The position numbers and the translations under genes are program-made. DNA of 64,000 nt, taken from Rhodococcus sp. 14-2470-1b. Its GTDB lineage: Bacteria; Actinomycetota; Actinomycetes; Mycobacteriales; Mycobacteriaceae. Below, in pieces: positions 18,923 to 36,033 of the stretch; position 1 is the stretch's first letter, and every line of letters begins with the position of its first letter. Under the pieces are notes generated by a model that did not search any database, was not told the DNA's origin, and worked only from the letters and a program-made list of their open reading frames with translations. The DNA is taken from NCBI RefSeq assembly GCF_002259415.1, contig NZ_NPFY01000011.1, positions 124,001-188,000 of the forward strand, given 5' to 3'.

Positions 18923-19741
18923 TCAGATGGAGCTGAATGCCGCCCACATGCGTGAGCCCAGGTCACGCTGCCCCGCGGCGTTGTAGTGGATTTTCTCGGT
19001 TTCGCTGTTGTAGAGGCCCTCCGGGCCGGGGACGAAGGCGACGCGGGGCCGACGGTGGGGGGTGTCTCGGTGCACGGCATCGATGACGGGATAGTCCTGG
19101 TGTCCCGACGCTATTTCGTCGGGAACCATTTGGCCGATGACGAAGGGTATGTCGCCGAATTCCTCTCGGACGGTGTCGATCACGCTGTCCAGTTTCTGTG
19201 CGTACACGGGCCCGGGTGTCAGCGGCACGTCGGATTCGCCTTGGTGCCACAGCACTGCGGCCAGTTCGTTGCCGGGGTGCAGGGCGAGGGCGGATCGGAT
19301 GCGCTCCATGCCGTTCCAGAACAGGTTGAGTCGGGCGGCGCGGTCGGCGGGGTCCCAGGTCACTCCGTTGACGCGCGCGAATGCCGAGTCGCCCCGTGCG
19401 TACGGGACCAACAGCACGGGCCGGCCCGTCGAGTCCGCGAGTTCCCTGGCGAAGACGGGTGCGAATCCGACTGCTTTGGAGGGCACTTCGTGGAACAGGG
19501 GGTCACATCCTGCGACGATGGTGTTCTTCGACTTCCCCGACGCAGCCCACTGGTGGACTCTCGGATGCGGCGCGTCGAGTCCGCTCATGTCCAATCCCAC
19601 CCCGGCGCCATGCGCGTTGGACTGCCCCAGGACGGCGACGACCAGGTACGGCTCGTCGAACACCGTGACGGGCAGACCGGTTCCCAGTCGCCGCTTGATC
19701 ACGTCTTTGGCACGCACTTCGAGGTTCTTCAGACGTCCCAC
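18923..19741 (-). CDS. SGNH-type carbohydrate esterase (sialate O-acetylesterase-like)
   Basis: 272 residues starting at GTG 19741, behind GAAGGTGGAG and 10 bases after the lipase stop; a longer frame overlaps that lipase and was rejected. Visible catalytic elements are GQSNAHG (Ser41), WHQGESD in the middle and KIHYNAAGQ near the end (His). This block set is that of DUF303/sialate O-acetylesterase-like enzymes, which remove acetyl groups from sugars. No signal peptide is visible, so it may be cytoplasmic or exported otherwise. It is the last gene of the minus-arm polysaccharide operon. Confidence 0.82.
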   Translation of the reverse strand: MGRLKNLEVRAKDVIKRRLGTGLPVTVFDEPYLVVAVLGQSNAHGAGVGLDMSGLDAPHPRVHQWAASGKSKNTIVAGCDPLFHEVPSKAVGFAPVFARELADSTGRPVLLVPYARGDSAFARVNGVTWDPADRAARLNLFWNGMERIRSALALHPGNELAAVLWHQGESDVPLTPGPVYAQKLDSVIDTVREEFGDIPFVIGQMVPDEIASGHQDYPVIDAVHRDTPHRRPRVAFVPGPEGLYNSETEKIHYNAAGQRDLGSRMWAAFSSI

Positions 19742-19751
19742 GGCTCCACCT

Positions 19752-20975
19752 TCAGTTGCAGTCGTCGACGGCGGGAGTGCCGGCGAACCGTTCACCTATC
19801 CAGTCGTTCACTGCGCCGCCGTCGACGTCGCCGTGTCCTTTGCCTGGTTGACGGTCGATGGTGATCACGTCCCCCAGGGAACATGCCTTGGCGAGCGCCG
19901 CATCCGTCCATTCGGCGTCGATGTAGGTGTCCGCGTCTCCGTACACCACCAGCATGGGCGCCGACGCCTTCTGCTGCGGCACAGCCATCTGTTCGAGGTA
20001 GTACCGCAACAAGGATTCCGCGTCAGGCGTCTTCGGCGCGAAGTCACGAGCACCGATCCGTTCCGCCGCGTCCGCACGTGCCGACGCCTGCGCCGGGGTG
20101 CAGCCGCTCAACGCAGCCCAGTCCTCGGCCGCCGATCCGCTACGGTACTGATCACGATCGAAGCCGGGGAACCTCCTGGCCAGAGATTCGATCACCCACT
20201 GCATCAACGGCGCTTGGTCGTCGGTCAGAGTGCCCTGTATCGCCTTGTCCACCAGGCCCACCATGTTCGCAGCCGGCGCCAGGCTGACCGATCCCAACAG
20301 TTCGAGTTCCGGTGCGTATCCGGATTGTTCGTTCGCTGCCCACGCTGCACCGCCGCCCTGGGATCCGCCGAACGCGACCCACCGGTTGGACACGTCGGGG
20401 AACGTATGCCGCAGTGCCCGAACGGCATCGATCATGTTGTAACCGGCAGTCGGGTTGTCCAGATAGTGGTGGACACCCTCATGGCCGAGACCTTGATAGT
20501 CGGTGATGGCCACGGCGAACCCCGCCGAGGTGAATCCAGCTGCCAATGCGGCACTTCCGAGCAGATCCCGTGACAGCGACGGCCCGCACGCATTCTCGAT
20601 TCCCGTGGTGCCGTGACCGAACGAGATGACGGGCCAACCGCCCTCGGGTGCATCTCCGTCGGGCACGAATACGCTCGCCGAGACCTCGGTGGCGCCGCCG
20701 TCACCGGATTGGATGGACCGATACACCACGCGGGCTGCCTCGGAACCACGCTGCACCGCCGACGGAAGATTGGGCATGGTCTCCGCACTGATCACCGACC
20801 CGGCTCCGGTACCGGGGTCGGCAACAGCGATCGGCTCTGCGGGCCGAAGCTTCTGCGATTCCGCGAAGATCGCGGGCATGCTCGTCACCAGCGGTACCGC
20901 CGACGAACAACCCGTCAGCAGGACGATCCCGAGTACCCCCGCTGTCCACGCCGCGTGAAAACGTGCAAGCCTCAT
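19752..20975 (-). CDS. Secretory lipase-family lipoprotein (copy 1)
   Basis: 407 residues with a lipoprotein signal (LLTGC, Cys23). The alpha/beta-hydrolase triad can be placed: Ser205 in FGGSQGGGAAWA, Asp in VVYGDADTYID, His in GKGHGDVDGG. FGHGTTGIENACG is the oxyanion region. This is the secretory lipase family (Candida LIP/CalA type), whose members hydrolyse and transfer fatty acyl groups. Its ATG overlaps the glycosidase stop (ATGA). It is one of three paralogues in this operon. Proposed role: adding or trimming fatty acyl esters on the exported polysaccharide (inference). Confidence 0.86.
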   Translation of the reverse strand: MRLARFHAAWTAGVLGIVLLTGCSSAVPLVTSMPAIFAESQKLRPAEPIAVADPGTGAGSVISAETMPNLPSAVQRGSEAARVVYRSIQSGDGGATEVSASVFVPDGDAPEGGWPVISFGHGTTGIENACGPSLSRDLLGSAALAAGFTSAGFAVAITDYQGLGHEGVHHYLDNPTAGYNMIDAVRALRHTFPDVSNRWVAFGGSQGGGAAWAANEQSGYAPELELLGSVSLAPAANMVGLVDKAIQGTLTDDQAPLMQWVIESLARRFPGFDRDQYRSGSAAEDWAALSGCTPAQASARADAAERIGARDFAPKTPDAESLLRYYLEQMAVPQQKASAPMLVVYGDADTYIDAEWTDAALAKACSLGDVITIDRQPGKGHGDVDGGAVNDWIGERFAGTPAVDDCN

Positions 20976-22531
20976 CGCGACTCCACCGTCGCACCGGATT
21001 CGGGAGACCAACGGATGGTGCCGAATTCGAAATCCGACACGAGCATGTCGCCGTCCTGGTACTCATCGCTCACCGGGAAACCGAACTCGGGAGTCCACGC
21101 TTCCAGAATCGCTCCGCGTACGACGAACGTTCCGGCTCGGTCGCTGTGGAACACTCGTGCCCCACCGTCGACGTCCAGTTGCTGCATCCCTTGCACGTAC
21201 GGGCCCGCAGGAAGATACCCGGATGCGAGTACCGCAGTGGACACGGCCGACGGCGATGCCACGTAACCCTGTTCGGTGCCGAAGAGAACGCCACCGGCGA
21301 ACTGCTGCGCGAGGTACTTTCGTCCGATGCCGTCGTGTGCCGGATACACCGGCGTCAGTGCTTCACCGAGGTAGTCGAACTCCTTCGACACTTCAAGCAT
21401 CGCCAGATGTTCCGGGTCCGAGCTGAACCCCACCTCGATGGCTGCCACCAACGCCTCGTACGCAGGCTTCGCAGTGAAATCACGGTGCAGCACACCGAAA
21501 TTGTCCTCGGGATTTGTCGATCCCGCCAGCCGATCACGAATTTCGTGCACGTACATCGGTCCGGCGAACGGCAACTGACTCCACTCGTGCACGAACGCCG
21601 TCATCAACTCACCCTGGCGAGCTTCGTCGATTCCGGCACCCTCGTCGGTCGGCGAGCCGAATTCCGTTGCCCACAGCTCCTTGTCGTCGTCGCCCCGCGC
21701 GATCATCTCCCGCCGCATGTCCGCGATCATGTGCAGAGCGCCGTCCGGAAACTGCTCGGTCCCGACGAGCGTCCCCGGGTACGAGTACGGATGCACCGAC
21801 AGGGCGTCGAAATACCCATGGGCCCCTGCGCCGTACATGCGCCTGAGAAACGTGAGACCGTTCATGGTGTTGTGGTTGTCGCCCACGGCACCGATCGCAC
21901 CCCCGATCACCAACGCATCGGGATCGGCGGCACGAATAGCGCCGAACGCCTCACGAAGCATCTCCGCGTACAGCTCCGGATCGGCCCACGGAGCGAAGAA
22001 CACCGATCCGTTCGGCTCGTTCCAGATCTCGTACGCCGTGACCCGGCCAGCGAAGTGCGCTGCAACACTGCCTGCGTATCGGCCGTATTCCTCCGCCGAC
22101 GCCGGCTTGCTCGTCAACCCGAGGGCCGGGTCCGCCGCGGCCCAGTCCGGTGAGTAATCGAGAATGGCCAGGACGTCGATACCCCGGTCGAGTGCAGCGT
22201 TCACCACCCGATCCGTCGGCTCCCAGACTTCGAGTCCCCGTTCGGGTTCCAGGAGTGGCCACGCCACATCGAGCCGTAGGCGCGTCGAACCGGAGGCCGC
22301 AACGGCGTCCAGACTACGAGCGAGGTCCTCGTCGCTCGCCCACAGCAGTGGCGCACCTCCGGTGAAACCAATGGGACGCAGCGGAAGTGGATCGAGGGAC
22401 GCAGGATCCGGGCCCTGCACGAAACCGCCGACGAGGGAGATGTCCACCGGCCGCGACCCTGCCACGTCCGGTGCACCGCAGCCGGTGAGCAGTAGCACCG
22501 CAGCGGACAGCGCCGCCCACGATCTCGGCAC
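20972..22531 (-). CDS. Lipoprotein glycosidase, clan GH-A (GH39/GH5-like), with LGFP-like tail (paralogue 1)
   Basis: 519 residues, lipobox LLTGC (Cys18). A TIM-barrel glycosidase with acid/base Glu172 in AYEIWNEPNG and nucleophile Glu290 in ELWATEFGSPT. The C-terminal 130 residues resemble LGFP repeats (GAILEAWTPEFGFPVSDE, then FEFGTIRWSPESGA), which tether proteins to the mycolate wall. GTG start at 22531 shares a base with the acyltransferase stop (TAGTG). Two paralogues lie at 30094 and 39397. It probably cuts the polymer made by this locus, for release or length control. Confidence 0.84.
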   Translation of the reverse strand: MPRSWAALSAAVLLLTGCGAPDVAGSRPVDISLVGGFVQGPDPASLDPLPLRPIGFTGGAPLLWASDEDLARSLDAVAASGSTRLRLDVAWPLLEPERGLEVWEPTDRVVNAALDRGIDVLAILDYSPDWAAADPALGLTSKPASAEEYGRYAGSVAAHFAGRVTAYEIWNEPNGSVFFAPWADPELYAEMLREAFGAIRAADPDALVIGGAIGAVGDNHNTMNGLTFLRRMYGAGAHGYFDALSVHPYSYPGTLVGTEQFPDGALHMIADMRREMIARGDDDKELWATEFGSPTDEGAGIDEARQGELMTAFVHEWSQLPFAGPMYVHEIRDRLAGSTNPEDNFGVLHRDFTAKPAYEALVAAIEVGFSSDPEHLAMLEVSKEFDYLGEALTPVYPAHDGIGRKYLAQQFAGGVLFGTEQGYVASPSAVSTAVLASGYLPAGPYVQGMQQLDVDGGARVFHSDRAGTFVVRGAILEAWTPEFGFPVSDEYQDGDMLVSDFEFGTIRWSPESGATVESR

Positions 22532-23826
22532 TACTTACCGGACTTGTACTTACGCGCCAACATCAACGCAGGCTTCTCGACGAGCCGGTACGTGATGGTG
22601 CCGAACAGGACGCTCACCGCCGTCACGACGACGAAGTTCCACAGCATCCCCACCGGACTGTCCCCGGCCATCCAGCCGAAGCGTCCCACCATGATCAGGA
22701 CCGGAAAGTGCCACAGATAGACACTCAGCGAAATGGTGCCGACGTATTCGAGCGGCTTCCAGTCCGCACGTTCGGCGAGCTTCGACCTCTCGCCTCGCGC
22801 AAGGGGAGCGATGATGAACAGGATCAACAGTGCGGATCCGAGCGAGACGAACGTGGTCTGCCAGCGCGAGTTGTCGTCGATGAGCTTCAGCGAGATGGCC
22901 GCAACGGGCAGCATCGCCAGGCCCGTCCACCACCGCATGTTCTTCGCGGTCCAGCCTTTCAACACCCCGGTGTCGACGGCGACGAAAATGACAGCAGCTG
23001 CCATGCCGAAGGTGAAGTTGTCCGCAAGGGAGAAGAAGCTACGGCTGAGGACTGCAACCTCGTTCGGTCCCCAGTCCAACAGCAGAGGATCGGTGATTCC
23101 CGACGGCTCGACCCGGCTCGCGGTGTAGAGCTTGCCCGCGACTCCGATAGCGAACATCACCACGACGGGGATCAGCACGAGTACGGAGGCACTGATGCTG
23201 GTCCGGCGTGCGAGATAGAACGCGATGCCGGTCAACAGCGGCAATGCGATGTAGAACATCAGCTCCAGCGTCAGCGACCACGATGGATTGATACCGGTCT
23301 GCAGCATCGACGGCACATAGGAGTGAACCAACGTGAGGTTGCCGAGCAACGTCACCGGGTCCGTGATCATGCCGAGCCCGGCATCGGTGAAGTGTTCCTC
23401 GGCCACCGCCGCGTTCTCGGTGAACACCGCCCGCATCACGAAGTTCGCGAACAGGAAGATCACGATGTACGCCGGAAACACCCGCAGAATGCGGTGTACT
23501 GCATAGCTTTTGTTGTCCGGCATGGGTTTACCGGCGAAGAGCCGTCGGACCATCGGCAGAAAGATGAGGAAGCCGGACAGCGCGAAGAAGAAGATCAGAC
23601 CTTGCCCGAGCAGGCCGAGTTTGTAGTTGGCCACCGTCACGGGGCTGTTGTGACCTCCCACGTGCACGGCGAGGACGCACAGGCAGGCGAAGCCCCGCGG
23701 GCCGTCCAAACCGAGGATCCTGGCCGGTCTCTTCGTTCCGGACGTCGAACTCGGTGCAGTCGAACTCGGTGCAGTCGAACTCGGTGCCGTCGCTGCGGCA
23801 GCGGTGCTGTCCGGGGTTGCTGTCAT
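22531..23826 (-). CDS. Acyltransferase-3 family membrane protein
   Basis: 431 residues with about ten to eleven membrane helices. The family core is visible: RGFACLCVLAVHVGGH with the conserved His, GQGLIFFFALSGFLIFLPM, and NPSWSLTLELMFYIALPLL. Members move acyl (often acetyl or succinyl) groups onto extracytoplasmic sugars. The first 33 residues are a low-complexity Ala/Ser/Thr/Pro tail encoded by 15-base repeats. The gene lies 15 bases after lipase copy 2 and leads into the glycosidase. It probably O-acylates the polysaccharide. Confidence 0.88.
   Translation of the reverse strand: MTATPDSTAAAATAPSSTAPSSTAPSSTSGTKRPARILGLDGPRGFACLCVLAVHVGGHNSPVTVANYKLGLLGQGLIFFFALSGFLIFLPMVRRLFAGKPMPDNKSYAVHRILRVFPAYIVIFLFANFVMRAVFTENAAVAEEHFTDAGLGMITDPVTLLGNLTLVHSYVPSMLQTGINPSWSLTLELMFYIALPLLTGIAFYLARRTSISASVLVLIPVVVMFAIGVAGKLYTASRVEPSGITDPLLLDWGPNEVAVLSRSFFSLADNFTFGMAAAVIFVAVDTGVLKGWTAKNMRWWTGLAMLPVAAISLKLIDDNSRWQTTFVSLGSALLILFIIAPLARGERSKLAERADWKPLEYVGTISLSVYLWHFPVLIMVGRFGWMAGDSPVGMLWNFVVVTAVSVLFGTITYRLVEKPALMLARKYKSGK
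23744..23788. repeat. 15-base tandem repeat, three copies
   Basis: GTCGAACTCGGTGCA is present at 23744, 23759 and 23774 (last copy differs in one base). On the minus strand it encodes the APSST repeats in the N-terminal tail of the acyltransferase. The unit is a multiple of three, so copy number can change without breaking the frame. Confidence 0.85.
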
Positions 23827-23841
23827 GGTTGGGCCTTCACA

Positions 23842-25053
23842 TCAGGGTGCGGCGGGCGGAGGGCAGTAGCTGACGGCAGGTTGCCCCGCGAATCTGTCGT
23901 TCAGCCACGGAAACGCAGCAGCACCGTCGATGTCTGCGTGGCCGGCCTCCGGCTGGAGTACCGACTGGATGGAGTCACCGCTCGCGCAGCCGGCTGCGAC
24001 AGCGCCGTCCGTCCACGCCTGCGATACGAGTGTGTCCTTGCCACCGTAGAGCACCAGCATCGGTGCGGCAGCGCGTGTCTGCGGAAGACTCATCTCCCGT
24101 AGGTAGCCTTCCAGTGCGCGTTCGGCTTCCGGGGTCGACGGCTCGAGATCCTCGTCGTCGATCTGCGCGGCCAGCTCCGTGCGGTCGGCCGCCAGGGGTC
24201 CGCCACAGGCGGACAGTTCGTCCCATCGTTCCTCGACGATGCCACGCCGGTAGTCGGCCAGGTCGATCTCGGGATGGGACTGCGCGAGCCCGACGAGCAC
24301 CCATTGCAGCAGCGGCTTCTGATCGGCGGTCAGCGTTCCCGCCGCCGCCGCGCGGGCGAGACCCGAGATGTCGGCGGCAGGAACGAGACTCACCGATCCG
24401 ACCATGTCGAGTCCCGAACCGTACGTGTTCGCGAGTTCGTTCGCTGCCCAGGCCGCCTGGCCACCCTGCGAACCCCCGAACGAGGCCCATCGATCGGACG
24501 TGTCCGGCACCAACTTCTGTGCAGCACGCACCGAGTCGATCAGGTTGTTGCCTGCTGTCCGCGCATCGAGGTACGGGTGGTAGTTCCCTTCGATCCCCAG
24601 GCCCTGGTAGTCCGATACCGCAACCACGTACCCGGACCTCACCAGCGCCGTGACGATGGGGGAGCTGCCCAACAGTTCGGGATCGGTCGACGGCCCGCAG
24701 TCCGGCAACACTCCCGTGGTTCCGTGTCCGTAGGCGATGATCGGCCATCCGCCGTCCGGCGCGGAGCCCTGCGGTGCGAAGACGGTCCCGGACACCTCCG
24801 TCGGGGATCCGTCGACGCCGGACGTCGAGGTGTAGACGACCCTGGCTGCCAGCGAGGAGATCGCGCTGACTCGCCTGTCGATGGTGAGCAGTTCCTCTGC
24901 ACTCTTCAGACTGCCAGGACCTGCGTCGGTGAAGTCCGCCTCGATCGTTCCCCCGAAGGCCACCGAATTCGCTTCCGGCGACGTGTCCTGACCCCCGCAC
25001 CCGGAGGCCAAGAGAATCGACACCACTGCAACAGTCCCCACTGTCTTCCTCAT
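23842..25053 (-). CDS. Secretory lipase-family lipoprotein (copy 2)
   Basis: 403 residues; lipoprotein signal ending LASGC (Cys19). The nucleophile lies in FGGSQGGQAAWA, the acid in VLYGGKDTLVS and the histidine in EAGHADIDGA; the oxyanion region is YGHGTTGVLPDCG. It aligns along its whole length with copies 1 and 3, including DYQGLGIEGNYHPYLD. The ATG overlaps the stop of the Wzz-like gene by four bases, so its synthesis is coupled to that of a chain-length regulator. Probable extracytoplasmic lipase or acyltransferase acting on the polymer. Confidence 0.86.
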   Translation of the reverse strand: MRKTVGTVAVVSILLASGCGGQDTSPEANSVAFGGTIEADFTDAGPGSLKSAEELLTIDRRVSAISSLAARVVYTSTSGVDGSPTEVSGTVFAPQGSAPDGGWPIIAYGHGTTGVLPDCGPSTDPELLGSSPIVTALVRSGYVVAVSDYQGLGIEGNYHPYLDARTAGNNLIDSVRAAQKLVPDTSDRWASFGGSQGGQAAWAANELANTYGSGLDMVGSVSLVPAADISGLARAAAAGTLTADQKPLLQWVLVGLAQSHPEIDLADYRRGIVEERWDELSACGGPLAADRTELAAQIDDEDLEPSTPEAERALEGYLREMSLPQTRAAAPMLVLYGGKDTLVSQAWTDGAVAAGCASGDSIQSVLQPEAGHADIDGAAAFPWLNDRFAGQPAVSYCPPPAAP

Positions 25054-25748
25054 CGACTAGCTCCCCCTGTGTAATCGAGCTTTTCGGCCACACGTTCCTC
25101 GGCTAGAAGGTCGGTGACCTGTCGCCGCGAGGTGATCGAATCGCGTCGCACCCCCGCCCCGACGACCAGCACTGCGGCAACAGTAGCGCCCATAGCCCCA
25201 CCGAGCATCAGAGCAGACATCAACGTCGACGGCGGCGACGGCACGCCCGCGGCGTCGATGAGCGTCACCTCGGACACGGGCCCGTTCGCTCCGAGGTCGA
25301 TCTCCTCGGCGAGCTGGATCAAGTTCAGCGCAACGGAATTGGCCACGTCACGCGCACGCGTCGGATCGTCCTGCGTTGCACTGATGTCGATCAATGCGGA
25401 CCCGGGGGTCGACACGACGAGCAGATCGGCTTTCAAGTCGTCGGGAGAGACCGGCAGACCCACGTCGACGATGGTGCGCCTCAGGACTTGCTCGGACGTG
25501 GCCAGCCCCACGTAGCTCTCCACCCGTACCAGCGAACTGCGGTTTCCCTCCATCGCCGCACGAGGTGACGACGGACCGGGCGCAGTCAGGAACACGCGCG
25601 ACGTCGCCGTGTACTTCTCTGCGACAAAGGAATCAGCGATCCACGCGGCAGCGACCGAGAGTACGGTGGCCGCGAGAATCAAGGCCCACCCGCGGACCAG
25701 CATCCTGCCGTAGTCGCGCAACGTGGGAACACCGACAGGAGTGATCAT
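25050..25748 (-). CDS. Wzz/YveK-like chain-length determinant
   Basis: 232 residues: N-terminal membrane helix (WALILAATVLSVAAAW), an outer domain of about 130 residues with TATSRVFLTAP and SYVGLATSEQVL, a Pro-rich segment AAGVPSPPSTLMSA and a second helix, followed by a short basic tail. It has no kinase domain. Such co-polymerases set polysaccharide chain length together with Wzy and a Wzc/CpsD-type partner. It overlaps lipase copy 3 upstream and lipase copy 2 downstream, both as ATGA. Confidence 0.85.
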   Translation of the reverse strand: MITPVGVPTLRDYGRMLVRGWALILAATVLSVAAAWIADSFVAEKYTATSRVFLTAPGPSSPRAAMEGNRSSLVRVESYVGLATSEQVLRRTIVDVGLPVSPDDLKADLLVVSTPGSALIDISATQDDPTRARDVANSVALNLIQLAEEIDLGANGPVSEVTLIDAAGVPSPPSTLMSALMLGGAMGATVAAVLVVGAGVRRDSITSRRQVTDLLAEERVAEKLDYTGGASR

Positions 25749-27049
25749 TCGACCTGCTCACACGTGTTCACCGCGCGCTGCCCGGCGAACCGAGCCTTCA
25801 CCCACGGCACCGACCGAGAACTGTCGAGATCTCCGTGGCCCTCGCCGCTGTGCAGCTCGTACTCCACCACATCTCCCGCGTCGCATGCCCGGGAGAGTGC
25901 CTTCTCCGTCCACGACTCGAGAATCAGGTCGTCCTCCGACCCGTACATGACGAGAAGCGGTGACGTTGACTTCTGCGTCGGAAGAGCCATGTCCGCCAAC
26001 CACCCTCGCAGCCGATCGGTGGCCTGCTGATCGACCGGACGCAGATCCGACGCCTGCAGCCGAGCCACGAGCTCGGGAACCTGATCCGACCCAGGAGGAA
26101 CGCACTGCATGAAATCGTCCCAGCGTTCCCGCGCCAGACCGGAACGATAGTCGTCCAAGTTCATCTCCGGGTGCGTGATCGCCAGTCCGTGCAGCGCGTA
26201 CATCAGCAACGGATACTGGGCGCGCGTCAGGGTTCCCGACGCCGCCGCGTCGGCCAGCCCGGCCATGTCCGACACCGGCACGATGGCTGCCGTCCCCACC
26301 AGTTCGAGGCCACCGCCGTACTCGGCGTTGCGATCGCTGGCTGCCCACGCGGCCATCCCACCGAGCGAGACGCCGTACGCAGCCCACCGGGTGCTCAGCG
26401 TGGGAAGGAAGTTACGGGCAGCGCGTACGGCATCGATCATGTTGTAGCCGAACGTCTTCGAATCCAGATACGGGTGGTAGTTGCCGTCCAGGCCGAGACC
26501 CTGATAGTCCGTCATCGTCACGGCGTAACCGTTCAACACCAGAGCCGCGACGATAGGAGCACTCCCGAGCAGGTTGACGTACTCCGACGGACCGCAGTTG
26601 TTCAGAACCCCCGTCGTACCGTGACCGAAGGACACGACCGGCCATCCACCCTCCGGGGCAACACCGCCCGGAATCACGACGGTGCCCGACACATCCGTCG
26701 GCTCACCCGTGACACCCGACGTCGACCGATACACCACACGGGTTGCTGCAGCGCCTAATTCGGTGATGTCCACCGCGATGTCCTCGATCGGTTCGGCCGA
26801 GATCAACGAGCCGGGCGCCGTCCCACCGAGAATCGGAGCCGGGCTCGGCTCCGGAGGCGTCACCGACGCCGTCACAGGCGTCGTCGGAGCATCAGGAGGG
26901 AGCACCAGTTCCTGCCCCTGGGCGCAGCCGACGAGCATCACTGCAGCCGCGCATACTGCACCCACCCGCACCGACCACGTCCGAAGCCCCGAACCCGGTC
27001 GTTCCGCAGGCTCCACTCCCGCCCCACCCGGTCGTTCCGCAGGCTCCAC
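25745..27049 (-). CDS. Secretory lipase-family lipoprotein (copy 3)
   Basis: Up to 434 residues. Lipobox VMLVGC (Cys42 if the first start is used). The nucleophile elbow is GVSLGGMAAWA, differing from GGSQGG in copies 1 and 2; acid in VMYGSEDDLIL, His in GEGHGDLDSS. A Pro-rich linker (TPPEPSPAP) follows the lipid anchor. A perfect 33-base duplication repeats the start region, so GTG 27049 and GTG 27016 have the same upstream GGGCGGGA and either could be used. It sits between the Wzc-like and Wzz-like genes. Confidence 0.84.
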   Translation of the reverse strand: MEPAERPGGAGVEPAERPGSGLRTWSVRVGAVCAAAVMLVGCAQGQELVLPPDAPTTPVTASVTPPEPSPAPILGGTAPGSLISAEPIEDIAVDITELGAAATRVVYRSTSGVTGEPTDVSGTVVIPGGVAPEGGWPVVSFGHGTTGVLNNCGPSEYVNLLGSAPIVAALVLNGYAVTMTDYQGLGLDGNYHPYLDSKTFGYNMIDAVRAARNFLPTLSTRWAAYGVSLGGMAAWAASDRNAEYGGGLELVGTAAIVPVSDMAGLADAAASGTLTRAQYPLLMYALHGLAITHPEMNLDDYRSGLARERWDDFMQCVPPGSDQVPELVARLQASDLRPVDQQATDRLRGWLADMALPTQKSTSPLLVMYGSEDDLILESWTEKALSRACDAGDVVEYELHSGEGHGDLDSSRSVPWVKARFAGQRAVNTCEQVE

Positions 27050-27058
27050 TCCCGCCCC
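26993..27058. repeat. Perfect 33-base tandem duplication at a gene start
   Basis: The 33-base unit occupies 26993-27025 and 27026-27058 without mismatch. On the minus strand each copy holds a GGGCGGGA ribosome binding site, a GTG and the codons for VEPAERPG. The right end reaches the stop codon of the Wzc-like gene. Eleven codons long, it keeps the lipase frame. Confidence 0.92.
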
Positions 27059-28452
27059 TAGCCTCTACCGACGGTGGCCGCCGAGGACTCTCGCCCCTCG
27101 ACCTCGATCTTCGGCTTCGCCACCGGCCCAGCAGAACCCGGGTTGGTCCGTCGACGACGATGTGGCTCGAATGTCGTGACGACACCCAGAACCTTCCCGC
27201 CGACTCCGCCCAGCGTCTTGATCGCCTTGCGCAGTTGATCCCGCGTCGTGCTGCCGACACGGGCGAGCACAAGACTTCCGTCCGCAAGAGCTGTGAGAAT
27301 TGCCCCGTCGGAGACCGACAGGAGCGGCGGAGTGTCGACGACGACGTAGCGGTAGTCCCCGCGGACTGCTTCCAGCAGGATCTGAGCGCGATCGGAACCG
27401 AGGAGCTCGCTCGGGTTCGGCGGCACGGGACCGGCGGGGAGAACGTCGACCCCGTCGACGACGTCGCGCTGAACGGCGTCGTCCAGTCGGTGTTCACCGG
27501 ACAGAACCGTGCTGAGGCCGCGCTCCTGCGTGATGTCCAAACGCTCGGCCAAGGCGGCCGTTCTGATGTCACCGTCGACGAGCAGAACCTTGTGACCGGC
27601 CTCGGCGAGGACGGCTGCCAGGTCGATGGCCGTGGAGGTGCGGCCTTCACCCGACTCGGCGCTGGTGACGGTGAGCACCCGCGGCGGAGATCCGCCGCCG
27701 AGGAAACGAATGTTGGTCCGCAAGGTGCGGAGCGGCTCACCCATCTTGGAGAACGACGCCACCGGAGTCTTCGGGCGCTCGGCGTCGATCGGGAGTCCGC
27801 CGAGGACTGCGTTGCCGGAGATCTCCTCCGCCTTGGGGCGGTCACGAATCGAACGGTCGACGAGCCCGCGAGCGAGAGCGATCACGACACCGAGAGCAAG
27901 ACCTGCCACTGCGCCCAGCCCGAGAAGCGTCACCAGGCCCGCGCCGAGCGGCGACGTCGGCACGTCGGCCTGATCGACGATGGTGGCTCCGGCAGCCGGG
28001 CTACCGCCGCGCTGCGACGTCTCGAGTTCCTGAACCAACTGCGTCAGCTGACCGGCGACCGCATTGGTCAACGCACGTGCGACGTCGGGGTCGGAATCGG
28101 TGCCGCACAGGTCGAGCAGAACTGTGCTCTCGATCGGTGTTGCGGTGATCATGGCACGCAAATCGTTCGCGGACAACGGCAATTGAAGCTGATCGACAGC
28201 ACGCTGTGCCACCTGGGTACTGGTGGCCAGTCCCGCGTAGGACGTGACACGTTCCTGAGAGAAGAGGTTGTTCTGATAGGCCTCGCCCACGGAACTGCCA
28301 CCCTCGGTGGTCACGAACAACCGGGCGCACGCCTGATACTGAGGCGTCGAGAAGAACGAGTAGGCCCACCCCCCGACGATGCCGAGCACCGTCACCACCG
28401 CGACGATCCACCAACCCGCACGGAGAATCCGTCCGTACTCTCGAATCTCCAC
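27058..28452 (-). CDS. Wzc/CapB-like polysaccharide co-polymerase with ATPase domain
   Basis: 464 residues: a Wzz domain between two helices (13-33 and 171-195) fused to a cytoplasmic P-loop domain. Walker A is SGEGRTST (267-274), with Arg271 where tyrosine kinases have Lys; Walker A' is LLVDGDIR (290-297) and Walker B YVVVDTPPLL. The C-terminus is basic and has no tyrosine cluster. It would set chain length with Wzy. Kinase activity is doubtful because of the Lys-to-Arg change and the missing tyrosines. GTG start behind TTGGAG. First gene of the minus-arm operon. Confidence 0.87.
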   Translation of the reverse strand: MEIREYGRILRAGWWIVAVVTVLGIVGGWAYSFFSTPQYQACARLFVTTEGGSSVGEAYQNNLFSQERVTSYAGLATSTQVAQRAVDQLQLPLSANDLRAMITATPIESTVLLDLCGTDSDPDVARALTNAVAGQLTQLVQELETSQRGGSPAAGATIVDQADVPTSPLGAGLVTLLGLGAVAGLALGVVIALARGLVDRSIRDRPKAEEISGNAVLGGLPIDAERPKTPVASFSKMGEPLRTLRTNIRFLGGGSPPRVLTVTSAESGEGRTSTAIDLAAVLAEAGHKVLLVDGDIRTAALAERLDITQERGLSTVLSGEHRLDDAVQRDVVDGVDVLPAGPVPPNPSELLGSDRAQILLEAVRGDYRYVVVDTPPLLSVSDGAILTALADGSLVLARVGSTTRDQLRKAIKTLGGVGGKVLGVVTTFEPHRRRRTNPGSAGPVAKPKIEVEGRESSAATVGRG

Positions 28453-28544
28453 GAATGCTCCAATCGAAAAATCCTGGTTCGCCGATGAGAATAAAGTGCC
28501 GTCATCGATTCGGCATCACTTAGCAGTTGCAGAGGTGTGAAAGC

Positions 28545-29966
28545 GTGACAACATCAGTGCCCATGAGCATCTCGAAACGAGTCGACGCGGCGGTCATCGT
28601 CGTCGTCCCGGTGATCGTTACATTCTTGATGATTCTCGGCGGAACACCCGGAAAACTGGGCGCGTTCGCACTCGTCGGACTGACCGTTGGAGCGTACATC
28701 GGCCTGCGCCACCCACTCTATTTGACTCGTGCTCTTGCATTTTCGTTGGGCGCATTGCCATTCGGTTACGTTCCGGGGGTGCACGCTCCCCTGGTGTTCA
28801 CCTTGGGCGCGGCAGTCATCCTCGCATCGGTGATTCACCGCACAGCCGTGACTCGCATCACAGTCGGTGAAATGGCCGTCATCGCACTGATCGTCACTTC
28901 GGCGATTTCCGTCTTCGCTACGGCCGGCACGACAGTGGATTATGCAGAATTCGGTAAATGGCTCGTTTCCACACTTGTTGCAGTGTCACTTCTCCGACTC
29001 CCCCGCGAAGAATTGGAACTGTTCGGGCGGATCTACGTCTATTCCGCGTCGGCAGCAGCCGCGTTCGCACTCGTCATCCTCGTCGCCGACCCGTCGGGCA
29101 GATTGATTCGGTATCTGTCGCCGTTCGGATACGGCACCGAGGAGGAAAGCACCCGCTTCGTCTACACCGACGGTGCCGCGACGGTTCGACTCGCCGGTAC
29201 CTATATCGACCCGAACGCCGCAGGCGTCGGCCTGTTCGTGGCCCTCATGCTGTGCGTTCTGCTGATCCGCGGGCGTCTGCGGATCGCGTTGGCGCTGCTG
29301 CTCTTCGGGTCCATCGTGCTGACGCTGTCCCGTGCGGCGCTCTTCTCCGTGGTCTTCGGCGTGCTTCTGATGCTGCTCTTCCAGAACCTGCGCACCCGGG
29401 AACGCGTGGCCATCATCGGTGGTTTCGCCCTCGCGTTCGTCGGCGCACTTGCCGTCCCCACCGTCCGCAACCGCGTGTTCTCGTCCTTCGGCAGCGGCGA
29501 CGCCGGATCCTCGGCCCGTGGCGATGCGCTCGTCGATTTCCCAGGTCACATGGCAGGGCATTGGCTCTTCGGGCTGGGCTGGGGGCGCGAGGAATTCAAG
29601 GATCCCGGCACCGCGTTCGACGTCAACTACGTCGCGAATGCTCCCCTGCTGTCGGTCTACCGCGGCGGAATCTTCACCGGACTCGCATTCCTGGCCATCA
29701 TCGTCGTCGGGGCCTATCTGGGTTATCGCTGTCTGCGCTCGCGCAACTGGGAACACGGATTCATCGGCGGCGGATTCATCGGATTCTCCGTCGTCGCGCT
29801 GCAGTTGGATTTCCCCGTCGTCACCATTCCGGCCACGACGATGGCCTTTTCCGTACTGATCGTTTTTCTCATCCTGGCGCGCGAAAAAGCAACGGATAAC
29901 CTGCCCGACGACGGGGAAATGCCCGCATTCTCATCCCGAAGACCGGATACAGCAAAGACAGCTTGA
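28545..29966 (+). CDS. Wzy-like polysaccharide polymerase / O-antigen ligase family
   Basis: 473 residues with about eleven to twelve membrane helices and a large outer loop (about 330-375) containing SGDAGSSARGDALVDF and a WLFGLGWG motif, as in the Wzy_C/O-antigen ligase family. It would polymerise lipid-linked repeat units outside the membrane. Start GTG 28545 follows GAGG; a later ATG at 28563 is possible. Base composition is lower in GC than the neighbours, common for this gene class. It diverges from the Wzc-like gene across 92 bases. Confidence 0.85.
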   Translation: MTTSVPMSISKRVDAAVIVVVPVIVTFLMILGGTPGKLGAFALVGLTVGAYIGLRHPLYLTRALAFSLGALPFGYVPGVHAPLVFTLGAAVILASVIHRTAVTRITVGEMAVIALIVTSAISVFATAGTTVDYAEFGKWLVSTLVAVSLLRLPREELELFGRIYVYSASAAAAFALVILVADPSGRLIRYLSPFGYGTEEESTRFVYTDGAATVRLAGTYIDPNAAGVGLFVALMLCVLLIRGRLRIALALLLFGSIVLTLSRAALFSVVFGVLLMLLFQNLRTRERVAIIGGFALAFVGALAVPTVRNRVFSSFGSGDAGSSARGDALVDFPGHMAGHWLFGLGWGREEFKDPGTAFDVNYVANAPLLSVYRGGIFTGLAFLAIIVVGAYLGYRCLRSRNWEHGFIGGGFIGFSVVALQLDFPVVTIPATTMAFSVLIVFLILAREKATDNLPDDGEMPAFSSRRPDTAKTA

Positions 29967-30093: not shown

Positions 30094-31611
30094 ATGAGAA
30101 GGACTCGAATCGGCGCGCTGATTTCTGCCGCGACCGTCGTTCTGGTCACTGCCACTCTGACGTGGAGTGGACCGTCGCTGCTCGCATCGCCCGAGGCATC
30201 CGTCGGACCTGGGGTCGCGCACGCGCAGACAACGCAGCCTCCACTCGGAGTCTCCGACAGCGGCGCACTTCTCTGGTCGTCCGACGCCGAACTGAACACC
30301 ACCCTGTCCATGCTCTCCGCAGCAGGGATCAGCTCCATTCGACTGTCCATCCCCTGGTTCAACGTCGAATACACCCGGAACCAGCTCGACTGGTCCTCCG
30401 TCGACCGCGTCGTGAACGCCGTCCACGCACGCGGGATCTCGATCCTCGGAATCATCGCCTACACACCCCCGTGGGCAACCTCACCCGCCGGTCAGCCGCT
30501 CAACACCCGACCGGCGTCACCAGCGACGTTCGGGCAGTTCGCCGGCAAGGTCGCCGCGCGATACGCCGGTAAGATCAGTGCCTACGAGATCTGGAACGAG
30601 CCCAACGGGGCCATGTTCTACGGACCGTCACCCGACGCCGCGGGCTACACCCAACTCCTGAAGGCCGCCTACCCGGCGATCAAGGCAGCCGACGCGTCGG
30701 CGACAGTCATCGGCGGTGTTCTGGGGGCGGTCGAGGACGGACCGGGGATGGTCAACCCCGTCACATTCGTGAACCAGATGTACTCGGCGGGCGCGGCCGG
30801 CTACTTCGACGCCTTCTCCTACCACCCGTATCAGTACTCGTTGAAATTCGGCGACGGTGTGTACGTCGACCACTCACCTGCCCGTCAGGCCATGGACATC
30901 CACGCGGCCATGGTCGCGAACGGCGACGGCAACAAGAAGATCTGGGCCACCGAGTACGGCGTCCCGACGGCGTACGCGTCGGAGACCGCCCAGAGCGACA
31001 TGATCACGAACTTCATCACGAAGTGGCGAGAACTGCCCTACGCCGGGCCGATTCACCTGTACCAGCTCCGCGACCAGCAGACCGGCAGCAGTGACCCGGA
31101 AATGACGTTCGGCCTCCTGCGTACCGACTGGAGCGGCAAGCCGGCACTGTGGGCCGTCATGTCGCAGATCATGAACGGATTCCCGACGTCGGCCGAGCAC
31201 ACCCGCTTCCAGAGCGTTCCCGCCTCGTCGGGCGCCGCCCTCTCACCGGTGTTCCTCGTCCGCGACACCTGGGCACAGATTCGCCAGAACGCCGTGGTCT
31301 TCGAGATGCCCGGCGGATTCGTCACCTCCCCGAGAGCCGTCGCCGACGCCGTGCGCTACAGCGGATTCCTCCCCACCACCAGCTTCAACGGCACCTACCA
31401 GGACTTCGACAGCCCCTTCGGGCTTCGCGTCTTCTCGACGCAGCTCGGTGGAACCCGGCTCATCGGCGGCGGCATCGTCGCTGCCTGGGACCCCACCCTC
31501 GGCCCCGCCACCTCCGACGAAACACCACTCCCAGGCGGCGGCGTTCGCGTGAACTTCCAGTACGGCAACATCACCTGGATTCCCGGCGCAGGCACAACAG
31601 TCACTCGCTGA
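30094..31611 (+). CDS. Secreted glycosidase, clan GH-A (GH39/GH5-like), with LGFP-like tail (paralogue 2)
   Basis: 505 residues. A Sec signal with a probable cleavage after AHA (about 44). The catalytic glutamates are Glu169 in AYEIWNEPNG and Glu287 in KIWATEYGVPT. The C-terminal domain (about 370-505) ends in FQYGNITWIPGAGTTV, similar to paralogue 1 and to LGFP wall-binding repeats. It follows the polymerase by 127 bases with GGAGAG before the ATG. Likely an extracellular hydrolase tuned to the polymer made here, attached to the cell wall. Confidence 0.85.
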   Translation: MRRTRIGALISAATVVLVTATLTWSGPSLLASPEASVGPGVAHAQTTQPPLGVSDSGALLWSSDAELNTTLSMLSAAGISSIRLSIPWFNVEYTRNQLDWSSVDRVVNAVHARGISILGIIAYTPPWATSPAGQPLNTRPASPATFGQFAGKVAARYAGKISAYEIWNEPNGAMFYGPSPDAAGYTQLLKAAYPAIKAADASATVIGGVLGAVEDGPGMVNPVTFVNQMYSAGAAGYFDAFSYHPYQYSLKFGDGVYVDHSPARQAMDIHAAMVANGDGNKKIWATEYGVPTAYASETAQSDMITNFITKWRELPYAGPIHLYQLRDQQTGSSDPEMTFGLLRTDWSGKPALWAVMSQIMNGFPTSAEHTRFQSVPASSGAALSPVFLVRDTWAQIRQNAVVFEMPGGFVTSPRAVADAVRYSGFLPTTSFNGTYQDFDSPFGLRVFSTQLGGTRLIGGGIVAAWDPTLGPATSDETPLPGGGVRVNFQYGNITWIPGAGTTVTR

Positions 31612-31663: not shown

Positions 31664-32206
31664 CACCGTCTGAATACTCGACCGAGAGCCTGATACTCGG
31701 TACGCTTTCCTCGAACTGCCCACCCATTCGTCATTGGACATGAAAATCGAACAATGCCGGTCGGTTTCCCTTCGCATCACCCGTGCCGAGCATCATGAAC
31801 CGGCCCGCTCGGAGCAAATATTTCGCCGATGTTAAATCTGGACGAATGACGAGTATCCATACATGCGTTGTCCCGAATTCGCACTGTGAACCACCTCACT
31901 TAGCGCTACCAATTACGGCACTTAACGGATACTTATAGAGCGAACGAATGACACGGAATTTCTTCCGTCGACTACTGTTCCATCCCAGTCGGGGGATGCA
32001 CGAAGGATCGCCGCACCAATGTTGGTGTGGCGTTTCTGGATTAACCAGCACTGCAAAGTTCAAGCACCGCTGACTGATTCACGTTCTTCTGGGGGCTCGA
32101 CCACTGTTTTGTGCACGGCTCGACACGACGGGTTGAAGATGCAATTAGCAACAATCGCTCCACGGCATTGCTCCGCCCATTTCGCGGATACCGGGAAGGA
32201 ACGCGA
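31664..32206. other. Long AT-richer leader upstream of the glycosyltransferase operon
   Basis: About 540 bases without a convincing gene. The composition is clearly more AT-rich than the surroundings. A 10-base stem with a G-T pair lies at 32010-32031 (CACCAA/TTGGTG core) and is followed by GTTTCT. A TACTTATAG sequence near 31934-31942 could hold a -10. A frame starting at 32019 is short and codes for nothing recognisable. A promoter and a structured leader for the 32207-40425 operon are likely here. Confidence 0.45.
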
Positions 32207-33349
32207 ATGACCGAGGCAGAGACCACGATTCGCGTCGCGATCGCCCATGACTACCTGACACAGCGAGGCGGCGCCGAGAAAGTAGTACTGGCCATGGCTC
32301 GCGCTTTTCCGGACAGCCCCATCTACACCACACTGTTCGAGCCGTCGACGACGTTCCCCGAGTTCGCCGACCTGGATGTGCGGCCGTCACGGCTCAACAA
32401 CATCGGATTCCTGCGCAAGAACCACCGCGCTGCCCTTCCGCTCCTACCGTTCGCGTCGGAGTCCATCACCATCGACGCCGACGTCGTGCTCACCAGCACC
32501 AGCGGGTGGGCACACGGCTTCAGGACGCCCGGTCGCAAACTCGTCTACTGCTATTCACCTGCACGTTGGCTCTACGAAGCCGAGATGTACCTGGGCGAGT
32601 CGAGCAGCCTTGCGAAGCGAATCATGTTGAAAGTTCTCACATCTCCGCTGCGACGCTGGGACAGACGGGCAGCGAAGTCCGCGGACCGATATCTGGCCAT
32701 CTCCACCGTCGTGCAGAAGCGGATCACCGATGCATACGGGTTCTCCTCCACGGTCCTGCCTGCGCCGTTCACCGTCGACAGTGCACCCGAGGAACCGATC
32801 GCCGACGCGCAAGCCTGGCTCGGCGAGGATTCCTTCTACCTGTGCATCTCGCGTCTGCTTCCGTACAAGAACGTGGACAAGGTGATCGGTGCATTCGCCG
32901 ACGGATCTCGTAAGCTCGTCGTCGTCGGCCGAGGACCGGAGGCCGATCGCCTGCGAAAGATCAAGTCCGACAACGTCCTCATGCTCAGCGACCTGTCCGC
33001 CGGCCAGATGACCTGGTTGTACCGCCGCTGTAACGCCGTCGTCGCCGCGAGCTATGAAGATTACGGACTCACCCCCATCGAAGCCGGCTACCACGGCAAA
33101 CCGTCCGTCGTTCTTCGCTGGGGCGGATTCCTCGACACCGTCGAGGAAGGTGTCACCGGAGTCTATTTCGACCAGCCCGATCCCGAATCGATTCGAGCCG
33201 CAGTAGACGCACTCGAAGCAACGACCTGGGTGCCACCCAAGATCCAGGCTCACGTGGAGCAGTTCAGCGAGGAACGCTTCGCGGCAGAACTGATTTCGGC
33301 AGTCACCGACATACACGAACACACAATCGAGAGGACTTTGTCGCGATGA
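32207..33349 (+). CDS. GT4-family glycosyltransferase
   Basis: 380 residues with a GT-B fold. N-terminal donor-side loop HDYLTQRGGAEKV, then PARWLYEAEMYLG in the middle; the C-terminal half has ISRLLPYKNVDKVI, VVGRGPEADRLR and the donor-binding EDYGLTPIEAGYHGKP motif. Enzymes of this type add mannose, rhamnose or related sugars to lipid-linked intermediates at the cytoplasmic face. Start at ATG 32207, eight bases after GGGAAGGA. First gene of an eight-gene operon with mostly 4-base overlaps; the next is GDP-mannose dehydratase. Confidence 0.88.
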   Translation: MTEAETTIRVAIAHDYLTQRGGAEKVVLAMARAFPDSPIYTTLFEPSTTFPEFADLDVRPSRLNNIGFLRKNHRAALPLLPFASESITIDADVVLTSTSGWAHGFRTPGRKLVYCYSPARWLYEAEMYLGESSSLAKRIMLKVLTSPLRRWDRRAAKSADRYLAISTVVQKRITDAYGFSSTVLPAPFTVDSAPEEPIADAQAWLGEDSFYLCISRLLPYKNVDKVIGAFADGSRKLVVVGRGPEADRLRKIKSDNVLMLSDLSAGQMTWLYRRCNAVVAASYEDYGLTPIEAGYHGKPSVVLRWGGFLDTVEEGVTGVYFDQPDPESIRAAVDALEATTWVPPKIQAHVEQFSEERFAAELISAVTDIHEHTIERTLSR

Positions 33350-34341
33350 CGAAGCGGGCATTGATCACAGGAATCACCGGACAAGACGGCCTCTACCTTG
33401 CCGAACTGCTACTGAGCAAGGGATACAAAGTTTTCGGATTGCTTCGCGGACAGAACAATCCGAAGGCAGCAATGCTGGACCGAGTCCTCCCTCAGGTAGA
33501 GGTCCTCACCGGTGACCTGCTCGACCTCTCCAGCCTGATGCGTGCCTTCGCAGTCGCCGACCCGGACGAGGTCTACAACCTCGGCGCAGTCTCCTTCGTC
33601 GCGTACTCGTGGGAGAACGCACGCCTGACCACCGATGTCACCGGCGGCGGAGTGCTGAACATGCTCGAATCCACCCGCCTCTACCAGGATGTCGCAGGCA
33701 AGCAGGTCCGCTTCTACCAGGCCTCGAGCTCGGAGATGTTCGGCAAGGTCCAGGAGGTTCCGCAGCGCGAGGAGACCCTGCTGTGGCCCCGGTCGCCGTA
33801 CGGTGTCGCCAAGGTCTACGGCCACTACATGACCATCAACTACCGTGAGTCCTACGGTATGCACGCGAGCTCCGGCATCCTGTTCAACCACGAATCCCCG
33901 CGTCGCGGCATCGAATTCGTCACCCGCAAGGTCACCCAGTCCGTCGCCAGGATCGCCCTGGGCTTGCAGAGCGAGATCGCACTCGGCAACCTCGACGCCA
34001 AGCGAGACTGGGGATTCGCCGGCGACTACGTCGAAGCGATGTACGCGATGCTCCAGCAGGACGAAGCCGACGACTACGTCATCTCCACCGGCGAGACCCA
34101 CTCGATCCGCGAACTGCTCGATCACGCGTTCGCGGCCGTGGACATCAAGGACTGGTCACAGTACGTGCGCATCGACCCGCGGTTCTTCCGCCCCGCCGAG
34201 GTCGACCTCCTCGTCGGCGATTCCACCAAGGCGCACGCACAGCTCGGCTGGAAGCCCAAGGTCACGTTCGAAGAGCTCGTGAAGATGATGGTGCAGAACG
34301 ACCTGGCGGAGCAGTCGCCTCACGCCATCAAGATCGCGTGA
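33346..34341 (+). CDS. gmd: GDP-mannose 4,6-dehydratase
   Basis: 331 residues of the extended SDR family. NAD(P)-binding GITGQDG (9-15), catalytic SSSEMFG and YGVAKVYGH (YxxxK), plus the GMD-specific NHESPRRG and [13 protein letters not shown]. It converts GDP-D-mannose to GDP-4-keto-6-deoxymannose, precursor of GDP-D-rhamnose, GDP-L-fucose and similar. No matching reductase or fucose synthase is recognised in the operon apart from the second dehydratase-like gene. ATG overlaps the GT4 stop. Confidence 0.93.
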
Positions 34342-35339
34342 CCGAAGGGCAGGAGAGAAGCCTGCAGGGAGGATCCAGGGCAGGGGCACCGACGGCTCTG
34401 GTTACTGGGGTCGCGGGACAGGACGGTAGTTACCTGTCGGAGGCTCTCGTCGAGATGGGCTGGGCCGTACACGGTGTGGCCAAGCCAGGGTCGACGGAGG
34501 TCGTCGACGATGTCACGATGCACGCGACCGACCTCGGTGAGCCGGGGGCGGCCTCGACGCTCGTACGCGCGGTGGACCCGGACTACGTCTTCCACCTGGC
34601 GGGCATCTCCTCGGTCTGGAGGTCGTGGAACGATCCTGTGCTGACCACCCGTGTCAACGGTGTCTCGGCAGCGTCGCTCCTGGATGCCTGCTTCTCGCAT
34701 CAGGAGGCGTCGGGCAAGCGTGTGATGGTGATCAACGCGTCCAGCGCAGAGATCTTCGCAGGCTCGGGAATCGCGATGCAGAACGAGGAAACACCGATCG
34801 CTCCCACCTCACCGTACGGCGCATCGAAAGCACTCAGTCACAACATGGTCCAGGTCTATCGCGCGCGCGGGCTGGAAGCCACCAACGCAATTCTGTACAA
34901 CCACGAGTCGCCGCGTCGGCCGGAGACGTTCGTCACCCGCAAGATCACCAAAGCAGCGGCAGCGATCGCACGAGGAACGCAGAGCGTCATCGAACTCGGC
35001 AGCACGTCCGCACAGCGCGACTGGGGTTGGGCGCCGGATTACGTGGCAGCCCTGGTCAAGATGGCGGAATACGCCAAGGGAGACGACTTCGTCGTGGCGA
35101 CGGGACGAGCTCACTCCGTCGCGGACTTCGTCGCCGCTGCACTGTCGACCGTCGGAATCACGGACTGGCAGAGCTACGTACGCGGAGATCCCGACATGCT
35201 GAGGCCGGCCGATTCGGCGAGAATGGTCGGCGACGCGTCCAAGGCACGCGAGATTCTGGGGTGGGGGCCGACCATGAACTTCGAGCAAATCGTCGAAGCC
35301 ATGGTCCAATTCGACATGAGCGAGGAGTTGGCAGCATGA
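34338..35339 (+). CDS. Second GMD-like SDR (dehydratase paralogue or 4-keto reductase)
   Basis: 333 residues, GTG start overlapping the gmd stop (GTGA). It keeps GVAGQDG, ASSAEIF, YGASKALSH and the GMD marks NHESPRR and RDWGWAPDYVAAL, so by motif it is closer to GMD than to fucose synthase. Two GMDs in a row are unexpected; one may have changed to a reductase giving GDP-rhamnose or GDP-6-deoxytalose, or the pair may form a heteromer. N-terminal 15 residues ([15 protein letters not shown]) are an unstructured extension. Confidence 0.8.
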   Translation: MTEGQERSLQGGSRAGAPTALVTGVAGQDGSYLSEALVEMGWAVHGVAKPGSTEVVDDVTMHATDLGEPGAASTLVRAVDPDYVFHLAGISSVWRSWNDPVLTTRVNGVSAASLLDACFSHQEASGKRVMVINASSAEIFAGSGIAMQNEETPIAPTSPYGASKALSHNMVQVYRARGLEATNAILYNHESPRRPETFVTRKITKAAAAIARGTQSVIELGSTSAQRDWGWAPDYVAALVKMAEYAKGDDFVVATGRAHSVADFVAAALSTVGITDWQSYVRGDPDMLRPADSARMVGDASKAREILGWGPTMNFEQIVEAMVQFDMSEELAA

Positions 35340-36010: not shown

Positions 36011-36033
36011 CTCCGAAGGAGCACCCGCCGTTG

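Follow-up and report, generated by a model that had tools for sequence, protein, structure and literature searches.

Why should a bacterial polysaccharide locus carry three lipase genes threaded between the genes that set polymer length? The question is raised by a 64,000-nucleotide stretch of Rhodococcus sp. 14-2470-1b (contig NZ_NPFY01000011.1, positions 124,001 to 188,000), hereafter called the window, in which eight minus-strand genes (18923-28452) are arranged, from 28452 down, in the order Wzc, LIPA, Wzz, LIPB, acyltransferase-3, PslG-like glycosidase, LIPC and SASA esterase. An earlier note, made from the sequence alone, had described this order, with the lipases interleaved among the chain-length regulators, and all eight open reading frames (ORFs) were confirmed at their coordinates. 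Our answer, held with a little less than even confidence, is that the locus may encode a lipase-containing, phosphorylation-independent co-polymerase that edits the acyl esters of its polymer. Two observations go beyond the earlier note: Wzc has lost its P-loop lysine, and some orthologues of LIPA are catalytically dead.

Three lipase groups among the chain-length genes

The three window lipases score 69.6, 59.4 and 61.4 bits for the LIP family (PF03583; cut-off 23), and each has a Ser-Asp-His triad. Two lipase models, including an AlphaFold2 model of LIPB with a mean pLDDT (predicted local distance difference test) of 91.3, show the CAL-A/LipA fold. Among proteins of known structure, Xanthomonas LipA (3h2g) is the closest in sequence; it is reported to cleave small-chain esters only (PMC5700972). 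A lipobox lies near the N-terminus of all three window lipases and of the glycosidase, consistent with the note's proposal that the lipases are lipoproteins, and an acyltransferase and a carbohydrate esterase are encoded alongside. The lipoprotein prediction is confined to these window lipoboxes; a strict lipobox pattern was found in 37/44, 38/46 and 7/75 members of the three groups described below (A, B and C), counts that were not used as evidence, and the misses (up to 8 per group printed) include lipoprotein-like sequences, sequences with an N-terminal membrane anchor and stretches that had been cut wrongly.

To place these lipases among their relatives, 202 of 218 lipase ORFs were put into a tree built with FastTree only, 16 having been dropped for length or score. 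LIPA falls in clade A (44 sequences from 44 loci, support.998), LIPB in clade B (46 from 40 loci,.993), and LIPC in clade C (75 from 50 loci,.981), all three within a clade of 177 (support.869). Each clade spans Rhodococcoides, Mycobacterium, Williamsia and Gordonia, and on this tree the division into LIPA, LIPB and LIPC orthologue groups is old. Recent tandem duplication was considered and rejected, because each of the three groups unites orthologues from several genera.

Scanning named genomes with the lipase alignment yielded 68 loci, from Rhodococcoides or Rhodococcus-labelled genomes, Mycobacterium/Mycolicibacterium, Williamsia, Gordonia and outsiders. The lipase at L039, in Rhodococcoides fascians A44A of the window's genus, is 97% identical to the window LIPC. 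The label Rhodococcus ruber IEGM 1391 on L075 (NZ_JAPWIJ010000002.1) is probably wrong, the genome belonging to the window's genus instead. Apart from the window, LIPA sits immediately between Wzc and Wzz, with Wzc first, in 43/43 loci, and Wzc or Wzz lies no more than 12 kb from 43/43 members of clade A, 45/45 of clade B and 71/74 of clade C; one clade C exception, L057, is near a contig end. Among all 106 loci, 38 (L001-L038) are short, with neighbours visible within about 1.5 kb only. The earlier note would have given up its proposal had the adjacency been confined to this strain; it is conserved across genera, and a strain-specific accident was rejected because the gene order is kept in other genomes and genera.

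The cleaner test of association is a search led from Wzz or Wzc. The short Wzz falls below its profile cut-offs (Pfam Wzz, 22.1 against 25.5 bits; TIGR01006, 6e-10, under the model cut-off), and its assignment is upheld because its orthologues are conserved. Among 61 genomes searched, a strong orthologue (>240 bits; next 118) was found in 19, all of the window's genus and including its own genome, and LIPA and LIPB flank it in 19/19 loci. The same 19, among the 37 genomes of the genus, have three lipase matches of 524-616 bits beside Wzz on that contig; in three others (G015, G026, G032) the locus is arranged differently, again with three lipases. In 198 Mycobacterium genomes (g23), for which about 7-8 best candidates per genome were scored, 23 Wzc matches exceeded 630 bits and the rest were at or below 472; a lipase follows Wzc immediately in 23/23 of the former, and none was seen within 15 kb of the lower-scoring Wzc among the matches listed. 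Coordinates in the own-genus and Mycobacterium comparisons were paired by reading printed lists. No lipase match above 389 bits occurred in 118 Nocardia genomes (g24). Thus the note's view that the lipases belong with the polysaccharide system is borne out from the lipase side and from the Wzz/Wzc side.

In a sample of 150 genomes of the order, the strong lipases (>440 bits) comprised 14 matches from four genomes of one family, none of them further than about 14 kb from Wzc or Wzz. In 401 genomes of the family, with the best four candidates per genome scored, at least 64 genomes from at least 7 of 31 genera had lipase matches (E up to 1e-128). Fourteen further places were fetched from this family sample, hand-chosen and not random. 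A lipase lies directly beside a full-length Wzc in nine, including two single-lipase loci in genus g69; it is 9 kb from Wzc at L203, is without a visible Wzc at L205 and L206, and lies near partial Wzc/Wzz-like ORFs, not scorable, at L209 and L210.

Catalytic serine is present in 46/46 LIPB and 75/75 LIPC proteins (one LIPC row is gapped at Asp and His), and in 36/44 LIPA proteins. The other 8/44 LIPA proteins lack both the catalytic serine and the histidine, and are still in place under purifying selection; the ratio of nonsynonymous to synonymous substitution rates (dN/dS) is meaningful for six close pairs only, the other 22 pairs giving 0.27-0.52 at high dS. That selection retains LIPA at its place even without the triad makes a function other than catalysis likely.

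Wzc proteins without the P-loop lysine

The window Wzc has arginine (R271) at the position that aligns with the P-loop lysine of bacterial tyrosine kinases (BY-kinases). No tyrosine occurs in its last 40 residues, so it lacks the tyrosine-rich tail of canonical BY-kinases, while Walker A' (LLVDGDIRT) and Walker B (VVVDTPPLL) are kept.

To determine how this residue varies, we surveyed 87 distinct full-length Wzc proteins, counting as lipase-adjacent those that have a lipase scoring 350 bits or more no further than 2 kb away. The P-loop lysine is missing from 46 of the 47 lipase-adjacent proteins (43 Arg, 3 Ala), and also from all three whose lipase is cut by the locus end (L028, L029 and L034, complete in L116-L118). 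Among the 37 Wzc proteins without a lipase, many of which rest on short flanks of about 1.5 kb, 34 have the lysine and 3 have Ser. The window's own genome encodes a further Wzc, at locus L115, that bears the lysine and has no lipase. A second alignment, based on a hidden Markov model, reproduced the table for all 87. In the order sample, Wzc-led loci from 30 of the 99 genomes with matches gave four lysine-less Wzc accompanied by a lipase; 26 others keep the lysine and show none within about 1.5 kb. The lysine was also missing from 9/9 lipase-adjacent Wzc in the later-fetched loci; the P-loops of L201 and L202 are degenerate, which makes the aligned residue uncertain, yet no canonical loop is seen. 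The Wzc at L203, 9 kb from its lipase, keeps Lys, and Ser is present in the full-length Wzc of L209, which lies several kb from the lipase. Wzc of L060 (Gordonia), cut at its end and excluded from the 87, has Ala. From the sequence, the window Wzc is probably without kinase activity.

Several variants of the locus were seen. In L116, L117, L118, L201 and L204, three lipases follow Wzc, GMD or glycosyltransferase genes are close by, and a separate Wzz was not seen; the P-loop residue is Ala or Thr, L201 being degenerate. A reduced version in genus g69 (L199 in G711, L200 in G662) pairs one LIPB-like lipase with a neighbouring Wzc that has P-loop Arg, and L200 retains Wzy, a glycosidase, glycosyltransferases and a Wzx-like gene. 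The module of Gordonia sputi L060 is split, LIPC and SASA standing after glycosyltransferase genes, apart from a Wzc-LIPA-Wzz-LIPB-acyltransferase-3 block. At L119 (G016, 8527-12968), a lysine-bearing Wzc stands next to two lipases that fall outside the main clade, another lipase/Wzc pairing.

A proposed co-polymerase and its alternatives

We propose that Wzc, Wzz and the three lipase-like proteins likely form the co-polymerase for a predicted Wzx/Wzy-type polysaccharide. O-acyl groups would be put on the polymer by acyltransferase-3 and the hexapeptide acyltransferase, and the lipoproteins would process them at the membrane's outer face, where Wzy and Wzz work. The simplest reading of a locus that holds both acyltransferases and the SASA esterase is that the polymer is probably O-acylated and that the lipoproteins process these acyl groups. 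As the polymer emerges, LIPB and LIPC are predicted to trim its acyl esters or move them, and LIPA likely serves to dock the acylated chain at Wzc/Wzz, through a presumed contact of the lipoproteins with Wzc/Wzz. That LIPA keeps a fixed place, and persists where the triad is gone, suggests a structural role for it as a partner of Wzc/Wzz that binds the chain. On this model tyrosine phosphorylation would not be needed to set chain length, and the lipases may replace the missing kinase cycle. A kinase-independent co-polymerase has precedent: one study describes an E. coli Wzc structure in a non-phosphorylated form with a Walker A Lys-to-Met change, and proposes that EcpK of Myxococcus acts as a pseudokinase scaffold (PMC12004946). 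Searches of the open-access literature found no kinase-independent co-polymerase tied to lipases and, among the titles and abstract openings listed, none about lipase genes within a Wzc/Wzz operon. That the locus represents a new co-polymerase class, in which lipase-fold subunits replace the Wzc phosphorylation cycle, acylation is the length ruler and LIPA can become an acyl-binding pseudolipase, is a stronger claim that we regard as doubtful.

A number of observations weigh against the proposed co-polymerase. Lysine loss and lipase presence are not always coupled: L038, the same place as L119, keeps the lysine beside two lipases outside the clade, and L030-L032, the three Wzc with Ser, have no lipase in their available flanks (20 kb for L030, as L122). 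Only four lysine-less Wzc occurred in the Wzc-led order sample, P-loop Arg does not prove that ATP binding is lost, and Walker A' and B are kept. The clade C lipases of L077 and L082 are without Wzc or Wzz in 10 kb on either side, and most of the 43 and 47 loci were found via lipases, so that these counts are biased. The triad of the window LIPA is intact, and a non-catalytic role in the window is therefore proposed by analogy.

The alternative that survives best, although we consider it unlikely, is that the lipases are plain short-chain deacetylases that remove polymer O-acetyl groups, like SASA, with no role in length control. The hexapeptide acyltransferase and acyltransferase-3 of the locus would suit such enzymes, as would the small-chain specificity reported for LipA, the closest in sequence among proteins of known structure; on the other hand, three lipase groups and SASA would be redundant, and LIPA is kept without its serine in 8/44 proteins. 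We think it quite unlikely that the lipases instead anchor or release the polymer, transferring the finished chain to, or freeing it from, mycolate or another envelope lipid. Strong lipase matches of the order sample were restricted to one family, members of the clade in named records all belong to genera that we take to be mycolic-acid bacteria, and two glycosidases carry the LGFP repeat, presumably a cell-wall binding module of this bacterial group. Anchoring or release leaves unexplained why LIPA has a fixed place between Wzc and Wzz, and why dead LIPA is kept there.

The earlier note had connected the lipases with the fatty-acid-containing extracellular polysaccharides (FACEPS) of Rhodococcus, and serine hydrolases of the CAL-A/LipA fold can transfer acyl groups, which counts for such a link. 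One study reports Rhodococcus polysaccharides that carry palmitic and stearic acid in ester linkage (PMC12786566). However, with the best four candidates per genome scored, no three-lipase cluster was found among the matches listed for genus g69, which appears to be classical Rhodococcus; its genomes have one strong lipase match each, two separate in G711 and G662, among the matches listed. The sugar genes also fit poorly: the second GDP-sugar enzyme is GMD/RMD-like, with no match named GDP-fucose synthase among the best 60 of 74, and some, not all, of the fatty-acid polysaccharides in the available text contain fucose (PMC12786566). Together with the small-chain specificity of LipA, this leaves the FACEPS link weak and long-chain fatty acylation by the locus not supported; machinery that places long fatty acyl chains on the polymer is improbable. 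Finally, nutrient-scavenging lipases sitting in the locus by chance or hitchhiking are extremely improbable: LIP matches are numerous in the window's own genome (G000; 18 in 5.9 Mb), but three fall inside these 7 kb and the place of LIPA is kept in 43/43 loci, so that the clustering exceeds chance, and the arrangement is conserved (43/43, 19/19, 23/23) at 35-60% identity in three orthologue groups.

If the proposed co-polymerase is correct, lipases would join the parts list of Wzy-type machines, and there would be a second route to kinase-independent co-polymerases besides EcpK-type scaffolds. The analysis offers a sharp correlation between a strong lipase neighbour and a lost kinase lysine, and a pseudoenzyme lineage in which scaffolding can be told apart from catalysis. 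It also provides a concrete, widely conserved gene set where antiSMASH mining had reported none, a 2025 Rhodococcus genome study having found, in its available text, no exopolysaccharide-specific gene clusters (PMC12298843).

The surrounding locus and comparison with known systems

Features of the locus are collected in Table 1. The earlier note had most genes joined by ATGA or closer overlaps. LIPA-Wzz and Wzz-LIPB are 4-nt ATGA overlaps, acyltransferase-3 and the glycosidase overlap by 1 nt, and the glycosidase and LIPC by 4 nt, given the LIPC start in Table 1; Wzc and LIPA are separated by an 8-nt gap and LIPB and acyltransferase-3 by a 15-nt gap. Five of the seven junctions are therefore overlaps of 1-4 nt or the 8-nt gap, one is the 15-nt gap, and the remaining one depends on the uncertain SASA start. 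The last gene, which the note called an SGNH esterase, is better assigned to the SASA family of carbohydrate esterases; its relatives in the PDB are NanS and an acetylxylan-esterase-related enzyme. A promoter scan of the locus, uninformative for this host, found none.

Table 1. Features of the polysaccharide locus in the window
Feature	Position	Strand	Evidence and remarks
SASA-family carbohydrate esterase	18923..19795	-	PF03629 84.4 bits; GQSN, WHQGESD, HYNAAG motifs; start position uncertain
LIPC, predicted lipoprotein	19752..20975	-	LTGC lipobox; triad S217-D361-H393 (419-aa ORF numbering); clade C; start taken as ATG 20975
PslG-like glycosidase, GH5/39 (glycoside hydrolase) type	20972..22531	-	Cellulase (GH5), weak GH39; LTGC lipobox; C-terminal LGFP repeat
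Acyltransferase-3 membrane O-acyltransferase	22531..23826	-	PF01757 (Acyl_transf_3) 88.1 bits; weak local similarity to SucT
LIPB, predicted lipoprotein	23842..25053	-	ASGC lipobox; triad S195-D340-H372; clade B
Short Wzz-type chain-length protein	25050..25748	-	Two hydrophobic segments (hydropathy), without ATPase; orthologues
LIPA, predicted lipoprotein, CAL-A/LipA-type alpha/beta hydrolase	25745..27049	-	LVGC lipobox; triad S228-D373-H405 intact; clade A
Wzc-like co-polymerase	27058..28452	-	Pfam Wzz 43.6 bits, AAA_31 54.6 bits; two hydrophobic segments (hydropathy); ATPase domain
Wzc P-loop GEGRTS	27634..27651	-	R271 at canonical Wzc Lys position; sequence and alignment
Wzy-like polymerase, divergent from Wzc	28527..29966	+	Wzy_C 28.8 bits, just under cut-off 31.7; divergent placement recurs in relatives
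Second PslG-like glycosidase, LGFP repeat	30094..31611	+	Same type as the glycosidase at 20972..22531
Glycosyltransferase	32111..33349	+	PF00534 76 bits
GDP-mannose 4,6-dehydratase (GMD)	33346..34341	+	PF16363 415 bits
GMD/RMD-like GDP-sugar enzyme	34338..35339	+	PF16363 292 bits; top PDB matches GMD, then RMD 2pk3
Hexapeptide-repeat acyltransferase, probably cytoplasmic	35336..35959	+	PF00132 49.6 bits
Glycosyltransferase	36031..37131	+	PF13692 30.7 bits
Weak Wzx-like flippase candidate	37083..38273	+	PF01943 alone, 9.1 bits, E 1.1
Glycosyltransferase	38150..39400	+	PF13692 51 bits

A Wzy-like protein (Wzy_C just below cut-off), a Wzz-type regulator and three glycosyltransferases occur together, as in a Wzx/Wzy system. 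No initiating phosphoglycosyltransferase turned up among the scanned ORFs, and no genome-wide search was made. Besides the two PslG-like LGFP glycosidases, a third secreted, weakly glycosidase-like protein lies at about 39390-40425. Elsewhere in the window (8428-16292), two family-5 solute-binding proteins, a TauD dioxygenase, a sulfatase and an ABC ATPase stand in a row, possibly for uptake and use of sulfate esters.

Parts of this locus resemble known systems. The glycosidase is a GH39-type enzyme like PslG of the Psl locus (4zn2), which we take to be encoded within an exopolysaccharide pathway; unlike PslG, it is a predicted lipoprotein with an LGFP repeat, and two such genes, perhaps a third, are present. 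Compared with the CAL-A/PF03583 secretory lipases and Xanthomonas LipA, with which they share 17-22% identity, the window-type lipases are predicted membrane lipoproteins in a Wzc/Wzz operon, and the LIPA orthologue group includes catalytically dead members. The fatty-acid-containing polysaccharides of Rhodococcus are heteropolysaccharides of relatives with ester-linked fatty acids (PMC12786566); no gene connects them with the module. The window Wzc is like the Wzc/Wzz polysaccharide co-polymerases with a BY-kinase (PCP-2) in its Wzz domain, two hydrophobic segments and ATPase domain with Walker A' and B, and differs in the replaced P-loop lysine (R in the window; R, A, T or a degenerate loop in relatives), the missing tyrosine tail and the interleaved lipase genes. 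It is like the EcpK-EpsV pair of Myxococcus xanthus, for which a phosphorylation-independent co-polymerase was proposed, in having no tyrosine tail; EcpK, however, is described as a stand-alone protein from which Walker motifs A, A' and B are all absent (PMC12004946), whereas the ATPase domain of the window Wzc, which is not a pseudokinase of the EcpK type, is fused to Wzz and has lost only the P-loop lysine.

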